The position numbers and the translations under genes were made by a program. Source: Candidatus Gastranaerophilales bacterium (GTDB taxonomy: Bacteria; Cyanobacteriota; Vampirovibrionia; Gastranaerophilales; Gastranaerophilaceae). Taken from it: DNA of 64,000 nucleotides. Numbering within the stretch: position 1 is the stretch's first letter; the number at the start of each line of letters is the position of its first letter. Below are positions 24,977 through 37,148 of this stretch, piece after piece. The notes beneath the pieces are model-generated. The model was given only the letters and a program-made list of their open reading frames with translations, was not told the origin of the DNA and did no database searches. The stretch is from positions 1 through 64,000 of the forward strand of contig CALUWM010000008.1 of NCBI GenBank assembly GCA_944324485.1, in the 5' to 3' direction.

Positions 24977-25825
24977 CTAAACTAAACTTAAAGCTATCGC
25001 CGGAGCTTGATTTGCTTGAGTCAACAATGAAGTTGATACTTGTTGAAGTATCTGTTGCTGAGTAAAAGAAGATGCTTCAGCAGCGATATCTGCGTCTGTA
25101 ATTATTGATTTAGCACTAGATAAATTTTCATACTGAGTTGTTAGAGTATCCAATGCGGATTCAAGACGGTTTTGAGCAGAACCTATTAATGATTTTCTTG
25201 ATGTAACATTATCGATACCTGTATCCAAGTTTTCAACAGCAGTTTTAAACGTAGCTGCACTCATGGTAGTTAAATCAAAATCAGCAACTCCTGTTAATTC
25301 TTGAAACTTGACACTTTCAAATACAGTGTTTGCAACAGATATTGTATTATCATCATCCGCATTCGCACCAACCTGGAACGTTACACCATTTGCTTGCAAA
25401 TCAGCGTCTTCAAATAAATTTAATTGAGAATATTTTGAAGAAGTGGAAACACGGTCAATTTCAGCTATACGTTGAGCTACTTCATCTTGCATAGCTTGAA
25501 TTTCTTCAGATGAATAAGTACCGTTTTTTGCTTGTAGAGTCAGATCACGAATTCTAGATAAGTTATCTTGAATAACATCCAAGTTACCTTCAGCGGTAGA
25601 TAACATAGCATTACCATTTTGAACATTCTTTTGAGCGATTTCATTACCATTTAACTGAACTTGCATACGAGCTGAAATAACAGTACCTGCAGCATCATCT
25701 TTTGCTGAATTTACCTTTAAACCCGTTGACATTCTCTCCATTGCTTTAGACAAAGCACTAGTCGAATCCGACAAAATGTTTTGGACTTTAATAGAATCCA
25801 TGTTTGTGTTAATAATAACAGCCAT
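24977..25825 (-). CDS. Flagellin 1 (282 aa)
   Basis: It has the conserved flagellin ends. The N-terminal D0/D1 helices read AVIINTNMDSIKVQNILSDSTSALSKAMERMSTGLKVNSAKDDAAG, and the C-terminal D1/D0 reads ...ITDADIAAEASSFTQQQILQQVSTSLLTQANQAPAIALSLV. The central variable part is short (about 140-200), so the filament surface domain is minimal. It is exported through the flagellar system and polymerises with its paralogue at 36300, with which it shares most D0/D1 residues. An AAAGGAGTATT ribosome site precedes the ATG. It stands alone, without other flagellar genes beside it. Ends in TAG. Confidence 0.95.
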   Translation of the reverse strand: MAVIINTNMDSIKVQNILSDSTSALSKAMERMSTGLKVNSAKDDAAGTVISARMQVQLNGNEIAQKNVQNGNAMLSTAEGNLDVIQDNLSRIRDLTLQAKNGTYSSEEIQAMQDEVAQRIAEIDRVSTSSKYSQLNLFEDADLQANGVTFQVGANADDDNTISVANTVFESVKFQELTGVADFDLTTMSAATFKTAVENLDTGIDNVTSRKSLIGSAQNRLESALDTLTTQYENLSSAKSIITDADIAAEASSFTQQQILQQVSTSLLTQANQAPAIALSLV

Positions 25826-29355: not shown

Positions 29356-30024
29356 TTATAAAGAAATTTTTAATACAAACTTATTTTTTTTATAATTTAT
29401 GAGGCCCTCTGATTTTAATTTAGATAATTCAAACGACATTGCCGAACGATCAATATTAAGATAATCCGCAAGCTCTTGCCTATTGAATTGAATCTCAAAA
29501 ACATTTGTTCTATGTTTTTGACTCTCATTTGAAAGATAAGTCAATAACTTATCTCTAATGGTTTTTTGAGAAATATTTTCAATTTTTTCAATCAATTCAA
29601 TATTTTCTTTTGACAAAATTTTAAATAAATTACTTATTAAAACACTATGGTGATTACAAGCATTCTTGCACATTGTTGAACATTTATCATAATTTAAAAC
29701 CAAAACAAGAGCATGTCCAACGCAAAGTGCATTAATATTCGCCTCAATATTTTTTGAAGCAACAAGCGCTAAACCTATATTATTGTTAGCATATAATTTC
29801 TGTATAATTATACGCCTTCCCCAATAAGTTTCTTTTTCAACATTAACTTCACCATCTAAAATTAAATATATTTTAGAAATTGTTTCGCCTTGGCGGATAA
29901 TCATATCACCATCTTCATATTTTTTAATATATCCTCCAAAACATTTTAGCATTCTAGTCAATTCTTCATCAGTAATTCCGCAAAAAAGAGGAGAATTTTT
30001 AATTTTAGAATAATATTTTTCCAT
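29356..30024 (-). CDS. Crp/Fnr family transcriptional regulator
   Basis: 222 residues from the ATG at 30024; a longer frame upstream would run through the divergent promoter and is rejected. Residues 12-110 are the cyclic-nucleotide-binding-type beta barrel (GEVNVEKE near 58). A Cys cluster CSTMCKNACNHH covers 115-126 and resembles the CxxACxxH motif I associate with anaerobe Crp/Fnr proteins. The C-terminal HTH carries FNRQELADYLNIDRSAMSFELSKLKSEGLI near 175-205. The N-terminal CxxC cluster of E. coli FNR is missing, so the sensed signal (redox, NO, heme or metal) is open. It is divergent from rubredoxin-grcA, with a palindrome between them, and probably regulates both. Confidence 0.9.
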   Translation of the reverse strand: MEKYYSKIKNSPLFCGITDEELTRMLKCFGGYIKKYEDGDMIIRQGETISKIYLILDGEVNVEKETYWGRRIIIQKLYANNNIGLALVASKNIEANINALCVGHALVLVLNYDKCSTMCKNACNHHSVLISNLFKILSKENIELIEKIENISQKTIRDKLLTYLSNESQKHRTNVFEIQFNRQELADYLNIDRSAMSFELSKLKSEGLINYKKNKFVLKISL

Positions 30025-30036
30025 ATTTTTTCCTTT

Positions 30037-30052
30037 TGTTGTAATTACAACA
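30037..30052. promoter_or_regulatory. 16-bp palindromic operator, candidate Crp/Fnr site
   Basis: TGTTGTAATTACAACA is a perfect palindrome in the short gap between the Crp/Fnr gene (start 30024) and rubredoxin (start 30108). Its centre (30044.5) is 41.5 bases upstream of the start point predicted from the TATACT box at 30074-30079. That is the class II activator position of CRP and FNR. It also lies 13 bases from the regulator's own start codon, suited to autorepression. Confidence 0.7.
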
Positions 30053-30073
30053 GAAATGTTGTTAAAACTAGTG

Positions 30074-30079
30074 TATACT
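30074..30079 (+). promoter_or_regulatory. Predicted -10 box of the rubredoxin-grcA promoter
   Basis: TATACT differs by one base from TATAAT. Seventeen bases upstream the -35 position reads CAGAAA, a poor match, which fits a promoter that needs an activator bound at the adjacent palindrome. Predicted start point is near 30086, leaving a leader of about 22 bases with the AAAAGGAG ribosome site. Confidence 0.55.
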
Positions 30080-30107
30080 AAAACTATAAAATTGAAAAGG
30101 AGAAAAT

Positions 30108-36299: not shown

Positions 36300-37148
36300 C
36301 TATACTAAACTTAGTGCAATTGATGGCGCTTGGTTTGCTTGTGCTAATAATGATGTTGATACTTGTTGAAGTATTTGCTGTTGTGTAAAGCTTGAAGCTT
36401 CAGAAGCAATATCGGCATCTGTGATAATTGACTTAGCACTTGATAAGTTTTCGTATTGAGTAGTTAAAGTAGATAATGCTGAATCTAGTCGATTTTGTGC
36501 AGAACCAATTATTGATTTTCTGCTTGTTATATTGTCTAAACCATCATCTAGGTTGTTAAGTGCAGTAACCATATCAGCCGCACTCATAGCAGTTAAATCA
36601 AAATCTGCCATAGTAGTTAATTCTTGAAACTCTACACTTTGGAATAATGTTTGATCTGCGGCAATTGTATTATCCTCAGTTGAATTAGCACCTACTTGGA
36701 AAGTAACACCGTTTGCCTGCAAATTAACATCATCGAACAAGAATAAAGATGAATACTTAGAAGATGATGAAATTCTATCTATTTCTTCTATCAATTGAGC
36801 AGCTTCATCTTGCATTGCTTGAATTTCTTCAGCAGAATACGTACCATTTTTTGCTTGCAGAGTCAAATCACGAATTCTTGACAAGTTGTCTTGTACAACG
36901 TCTAAGTGTCCTTCAGCTGTCGCCAACATAGCATTACCGTTTTGAACGTTATTTTGTGCAATTTTATTACCGTCTAATTGCACTTGCATACGAGCTGAAA
37001 TTACAGTACCTGCTGCATCATCTTTTGCTGTCAACACTTTTAAACCCGTAGACATTCTTTGCATAGCTGTTGACAAAGAATTTGTTGCTTTTGTTAGATT
37101 GCTTTGAATCTTAATTGAATCAACATTTGTGTTAATTACTACTGCCAT
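36300..37148 (-). CDS. Flagellin 2 (282 aa)
   Basis: A paralogue of the protein at 24977 and exactly the same length. It starts AVVINTNVDSIKIQSNLTKATNSLSTAMQRMSTGLKVLTAKDDAAG and ends ITDADIASEASSFTQQQILQQVSTSLLAQANQAPSIALSLV. Differences cluster in the middle (about 125-205). There is no large D2/D3 domain. The ATG follows AAAAAGGAGTATT, nearly the same ribosome site as flagellin 1. The two genes lie 10 kb apart, so both are probably expressed singly. A two-flagellin filament is the simplest reading. Confidence 0.95.
   Translation of the reverse strand: MAVVINTNVDSIKIQSNLTKATNSLSTAMQRMSTGLKVLTAKDDAAGTVISARMQVQLDGNKIAQNNVQNGNAMLATAEGHLDVVQDNLSRIRDLTLQAKNGTYSAEEIQAMQDEAAQLIEEIDRISSSSKYSSLFLFDDVNLQANGVTFQVGANSTEDNTIAADQTLFQSVEFQELTTMADFDLTAMSAADMVTALNNLDDGLDNITSRKSIIGSAQNRLDSALSTLTTQYENLSSAKSIITDADIASEASSFTQQQILQQVSTSLLAQANQAPSIALSLV

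Follow-up and report, generated by a model that had tools for sequence, protein, structure and literature searches.

The window, a 64,000-nucleotide stretch of DNA from an uncultured gut bacterium that we assigned to Candidatus Gastranaerophilales from named close relatives, carries a gene for a Crp/Fnr-type regulator that diverges from genes for rubredoxin and the glycyl radical protein GrcA3. The space between them contains the perfectly symmetric 16-bp sequence TGTTGTAATTACAACA, which lies 12 nt from the ATG of the regulator at 30024 and adjoins the ribosome site of that gene (Table 1). The assignment of GrcA3 follows from a score of 163.2 bits against the NF038360 cut-off of 158. Two similar genes for 282-aa flagellin-like proteins, about 11 kb apart (24977-25825 and 36300-37148), flank the region.

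Table 1. Features of the regulator-rubredoxin-grcA3 locus, in window coordinates.
Feature	Position	Strand	Basis or remark
HcpR-like Crp/Fnr regulator, 222 aa	29356..30024	-	PF00027, HTH_Crp_2, relatives beside frdX/hcp, fold match
Recognition-helix codons R193, S194 ... F198	29431..29448	-	Equivalents of CRP R180, E181, R185
Codons of C119, C123, H126 (CxxxCxxH)	29647..29670	-	Invariant in alignments; start of dimerisation helix
Codon of C28, fourth invariant residue	29941-29943	-	Invariant in alignments
Operator palindrome TGTTGTAATTACAACA (putative)	30037..30052	.	Centre 30044.5; conservation
Degenerate -35 CAGAAA, overlapping operator	30051..30056	+	Conserved part G-33, A-32 (base frequencies)
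TGTTGT, -29 to -24	30057..30062	+	Direct repeat of left half-site, 20 bp downstream
-10 hexamer TATACT, rubredoxin-grcA3 promoter	30074..30079	+	21 nt from palindrome
Inferred transcription start	30086..30086 (about)	+	7 bases past -10 hexamer
Rubredoxin, 52 aa	30108..30266	+	Pfam PF00301, E 1.4e-23; Shine-Dalgarno AAGGAG 30097-30102
grcA3, 80 aa	30285..30527	+	NF038360; C-terminal half of the glycyl radical domain, Gly_radical positions 51-106

Promoter architecture at the divergent locus

A first-pass annotation of this DNA had described the palindrome as exactly symmetric and as centred 41.5 bp upstream of the start point deduced from TATACT, and both descriptions hold on the sequence, with the centre at 30044.5 and +1 at about 30086. 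The poor -35 element that it reported is likewise apparent in CAGAAA, and a sigma-70 consensus scan did not list the rubredoxin-grcA3 promoter. An operator at -41.5 that overlaps a weak -35 is the hallmark of class II activation, with the start point here taken from the -10 hexamer, and the class II activator position at this promoter is well supported by the genome comparisons described below. The same layout of a palindrome at -41.5, a poor -35 and control of anaerobic genes characterizes E. coli class II activators of the FNR type, whereas the sites differ, being TGTTGTn4ACAACA here and TTGATn4ATCAA for E. coli FNR. Downstream of the palindrome, most grcA-type promoters and a single Mailhella promoter keep the repeated TGTTGT, and TGTT recurs at this position in several promoters of other phyla; the repeat is possibly a second regulator contact or a promoter element. 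No convincing candidate was seen for the regulator's own promoter.

Conservation of the site and search for a regulon

A bare palindrome is unremarkable in such AT-rich DNA: the 64-kb window holds four perfect 16-bp palindromes, and 20 Markov simulations gave between 0 and 8 with a mean of about 3.3. Because the bare palindrome is within chance expectation, the case rests on comparison across genomes. The regulator was sought in all 288 genomes of the family set and found in 80, and 29 genomes with a regulator identity of 62% or more made up the close-regulator group. The extended site TGTTGTnnnnACAACnGnnnTGTTGT occurs exactly in 24 of the 288 genomes, all 24 of them within the close-regulator group, and the remaining 259 genomes lack it; a near match is present in another four of the 29 (G145, G243, G039 and G187). 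In the window's genus the site is present in 16/16 genomes with the regulator versus 0/4 without it, and in genus g24 in 11/12 versus 0/5. Shared ancestry inflates these co-occurrence counts, while the contrasts within genera argue for co-loss or co-gain of site and regulator. One genome, G024, has the regulator and neither the site nor a second grcA, and three congeners without the regulator retain a grcA that lacks the site. In G279 a single grcA lies just upstream of the trigger-factor gene (L179, 2968-3344), where the window has the regulator, and the regulator, rubredoxin and palindrome are all absent from that locus. About three bare 16-bp palindromes are expected per window, and the other exact genomic copy falls in a coding sequence. 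A chance palindrome is still refuted by the site's conservation in different genera and its co-occurrence with the regulator, and we rejected it as having a negligible probability.

The conserved unit extends from the palindrome to the -10 hexamer. Upstream regions of close relatives keep this whole block (TGTTGTAATTACAACAGAAATGTTGTTAAAACTAGTGTATACT), and 41 of its 43 columns are conserved at a level of at least 80% in 15 relatives, versus 12 of the next 25 columns. All grcA-type promoters with the site have 21 nt between palindrome and -10, and in the g24 genomes with the site, grcA stands alone downstream in an operon without rubredoxin. Three genomes (G188, G234 and G108) have an unlinked regulator and the site upstream of a second grcA; the distance to TATAAT, read in G234 and G108, is identical. 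Where regulator and grcA are separated in this way, no such site was seen upstream of the regulator. As the site stays with grcA when the regulator moves, it is chiefly a control element of grcA and not of the regulator. Overall, the comparisons show that the site is real, that it follows the grcA promoter and that its exact form is confined to genomes with the regulator. The earlier proposal of a class II operator that serves the adjacent Crp/Fnr-type protein is thereby supported by three lines of comparison, namely co-occurrence, the loci in which regulator and site are separated, and the conserved spacing.

The same data bear on two other functions for the palindrome. It could be chiefly an autoregulatory or repressor element of the regulator gene, given its position 12 nt ahead of the start codon and by the ribosome site, and the conserved TGTTGT 20 bp downstream (-29 to -24), acting as a third half-site, might let a second dimer block polymerase. 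We consider this unlikely as the main role, since the site remains with grcA at separated loci and stands at a variable interval from the regulator start (about 13-80 nt) but at a constant one from the grcA -10; autoregulation may occur as a side effect. Alternatively, the palindrome could form an RNA hairpin in the presumed leader of the regulator gene, just upstream of its Shine-Dalgarno sequence, and mask the ribosome site. This is highly improbable, because the site is kept upstream of unlinked grcA genes, where there is no regulator leader, and because the conserved feature is the spacing to the opposite promoter.

Within the 1.72 Mb genome, TGTTGTAATTACAACA has two exact copies, the second of which (C3:52195) lies within the coding sequence of a 190-aa protein. 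A scan for the same 16-mer upstream of anaerobic stress genes, as suggested in the first-pass annotation, came out negative. Nine other matches to TTGTTGn6CAACA all fall within open reading frames, and the exact, extended and TTGTTGn6CAACA searches of the genome returned, outside open reading frames, solely the site itself. Allowing two mismatches gave 10 matches, barely above the 7 of a reversed control, and a search for the architecture of site plus -10 gave 36 versus 13 in the reversed control. The sole plausible intergenic location among the architecture loci that we checked precedes a leuD-like gene and has a poor right half. This degenerate sequence, GTTGTAATTCCAATT, lies at C15:16589 (about position 1500 of L294) with TATAAT downstream, and may be a chance match. 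Pattern searches of this genome found no wider regulon, and the regulator appears to have one strong genomic site.

Two further observations concern the distribution of site and regulator. The sequence TGTTGTACTAACAACAGAAATGATGT, near-identical and site-like, recurs in genera without a close regulator (G281:C36:4405-4430, G076:C3:206057-206082, G172:C6:21204-21229 and G194:C5:1282-1307). Regulator copies without an adjacent site were also seen (L043, L210, L212, L215 and others), several of which adjoin a gene starting MIYLDAGTTYSK.

Relatives, DNA readout and candidate sensor residues of the regulator

The regulator belongs to the Crp/Fnr superfamily by its PF00027 (1.4e-9) and PF13545 (2.8e-9) domains and is the only PF00027 protein found in the genome; NCBIfam gave it no specific name. 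Its relatives point to the HcpR type. Twenty of 23 relatives from other phyla (L249-L271, 37-47% identity; Bacillota, Actinomycetota, Thermodesulfobacteriota and others) adjoin an frdX-like gene and/or hcp and have similar palindromes, where neighbour genes were judged from N-terminal sequences and a ferredoxin-like gene was read as frdX. More distant relatives within the family (27-44%) are often divergent from hcp, with palindromes of the TGTTGG or TGTTGC type. A consensus TATAAT lies 21 nt past the palindrome in about 20 promoters of other phyla, with 19 and 21 nt both possible in the TGTTGG group, and this shared spacing in distant relatives makes the -41.5 geometry a property of the regulator family. 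Fold comparison ranks P. gingivalis HcpR (9day) first, which says little by itself as many Crp-fold proteins score almost equally.

HcpR and HcpR2 control hcp and frdX, and HcpR controls frdX-hcp in Clostridia (PMC1274295, Rodionov and colleagues); in a C. difficile hcpR mutant the expression of hcp and frdX is lowered (PMC12915319). The protein studied here resembles the HcpR and HcpR2 regulators of frdX-hcp in Clostridia, Bacteroidetes and Desulfovibrio in its Crp/Fnr family membership, its few or single local targets and its divergent arrangement. It differs in its target: hcp or frdX-hcp lies beside the relatives and not beside the regulator in this genome, and the sole strong intergenic site found is that of rubredoxin-grcA3, not of hcp. 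The genome's own hcp gene is unlinked to the regulator and its upstream region has no such palindrome; the nitrosative link therefore rests on the relatives. With neighbours of the frdX and/or hcp type in most of these relatives, the regulator is best described as HcpR-like. In other bacteria HcpR normally activates the genes for hybrid cluster protein and turns on defence against nitric oxide. The retargeting of the present regulator from hcp genes to rubredoxin-grcA3 is part of an overall explanation that we regard as probable. In the tree, the grcA-type regulators form a clade with 100% SH-aLRT support, near a Mailhella regulator (88%) and a Bacillota group and apart from other family members, hinting at a horizontal origin with moderate tree support. 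Our literature search found no paper on regulators of this order.

The recognition helix is consistent with this assignment. R193 is present in 103/103 homologues and S194 in 99/103, at the places of CRP 180 and 181, where HcpR and HcpR2 also have R and S; serine at CRP 181 occurs in HcpR2 from both C. difficile and C. thermocellum, whose motifs deviate (PMC1274295). Residue 198, equivalent to CRP 185, is phenylalanine together with a TGTTGT half-site in nearly all grcA types, alanine, valine or threonine with TGTTGG or mixed sites, and arginine or lysine with TGTTGC. Cytosine at half-site base 6 accompanies arginine or lysine at residue 198 in 17/18 cases, versus 1/62 with other residues. The covariation is suggestive, as it comprises only 3-5 independent contrasts and falls below significance on the tree.

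Four residues stand out as candidate sensors. All 49 aligned sequences and 101/103 homologues share C28, C119, C123 and H126, and the two exceptions (L077 and L085), sister sequences of genus g17, lack the whole set. In a structure model (mean pLDDT 86.7) the second helix ends with C28, and C119, C123 and H126 lie about where the dimerisation helix begins; a four-ligand metal or Fe-S site formed by these residues is a reasonable inference from alignment and model. Of the CxxACxxH-like cluster announced in the first-pass annotation, the Cys/His cluster stands and the exact motif does not, the spacing being C119-x3-C123-x2-H126.

The arrangement matches neither of two known sensors. E. coli FNR has three N-terminal ligands plus a central cysteine, while the regulator has one residue near the N-terminus and CxxxCxxH before the long helix. 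In P. gingivalis HcpR, NO binds a heme held by Met68 (PMC12750200), whose role as ligand is established in that species alone. The profile alignment sets Met68 opposite Lys64, so the ligand is not conserved, and CxxxCxxH, like the Cys3His residues as a set, is absent from the P. gingivalis protein. Its signal can therefore not simply be carried over to the present regulator.

A split pyruvate formate-lyase and the proposed switch

The second gene of the operon belongs with pyruvate formate-lyase (PFL). In relatives, grcA3 directly follows a PFL gene that stops early (e.g., L181:2374-4725), and the Pfam Gly_radical domain is divided between the two, with positions 2-49 ending the PFL body and 51-106 lying in GrcA3; other genera of the family have one fused PFL frame of 740-790 aa. 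In the genome studied, contig C14 carries the PFL body, and fragments of another grcA3 stand at the termini of C14 and C37, where the assembly presumably broke because of the likeness of the two copies. The grcA3 of the window thus duplicates the radical half and shares the operator with rubredoxin. On these gene structures, PFL is naturally split, with grcA3 as its radical half, duplicated under the site. The description of this gene as a spare glycyl-radical domain was right in that it is an extra copy, and fell short in that it is not merely spare: it duplicates the radical half that the split PFL requires as a separate protein. Like E. coli GrcA/YfiD, GrcA3 is a small protein carrying a glycyl radical for PFL; unlike in E. 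coli, the PFL gene lacks its radical half, and a half domain (51-106) is encoded both beside the PFL body and in a second, regulated copy. We found no paper on a split PFL.

Binding, the direction of control, the signal and repair through exchange of subunits are our inferences. The regulator dimer would be activated by stress, probably in the form of reactive nitrogen species, and would bind at -41.5. There, as a class II activator, it would recruit RNA polymerase and so compensate for the missing -35. Rubredoxin, an electron carrier, could feed NO- and O2-removing enzymes, and fresh GrcA3 would replace stress-destroyed radical subunits of the split PFL. NO probably damages glycyl radical enzymes such as PFL, and reactive nitrogen species are the most likely signal by the family precedent of HcpR; sensing would take place at the Cys3His site and not through the heme ligand of P. 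gingivalis HcpR.

The same operator and regulator could instead answer to oxygen or redox state, as the first-pass annotation suggested, with C28, C119, C123 and H126 holding an O2-labile Fe-S cluster and the output repairing O2-cleaved PFL. Both products suit oxygen damage, E. coli is known to rescue O2-cut PFL through GrcA (PMC8683613), and the four ligand-type residues are otherwise invariant and missing as a set from the two sister homologues. The residue layout is unlike that of FNR, relatives adjoin frdX/hcp and characterised HcpR proteins respond to NO or nitrite, all of which count against an oxygen signal and leave it a possibility that we take seriously without favouring it.

Taken together, the palindrome is very probably where an HcpR-like regulator switches on rubredoxin and a replacement PFL radical subunit. 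HcpR-like class II activation of rubredoxin-grcA3 by a nitrosative signal, with Cys3His sensing and subunit replacement, is the joint explanation that we hold with reasonable confidence. More tentatively, the system may represent a regulator of the HcpR type that senses through a non-heme Cys3His metal or Fe-S site and has been rewired from hcp to subunit-exchange repair of a naturally split PFL. This PFL would have two genes for its radical half, one with the enzyme and the other under a stress operator with rubredoxin. Since there appears to be one strong genomic site, a single DNA fragment and a single protein would suffice to test binding and signal. If true, the finding would reveal how a damage-prone radical enzyme is protected in a non-photosynthetic gut bacterium related to cyanobacteria, through a single regulator that serves a single operon. 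HcpR control would then reach beyond NO removal to the repair of an enzyme, and the system would provide a natural case of a PFL that works with a separate, replaceable radical subunit.
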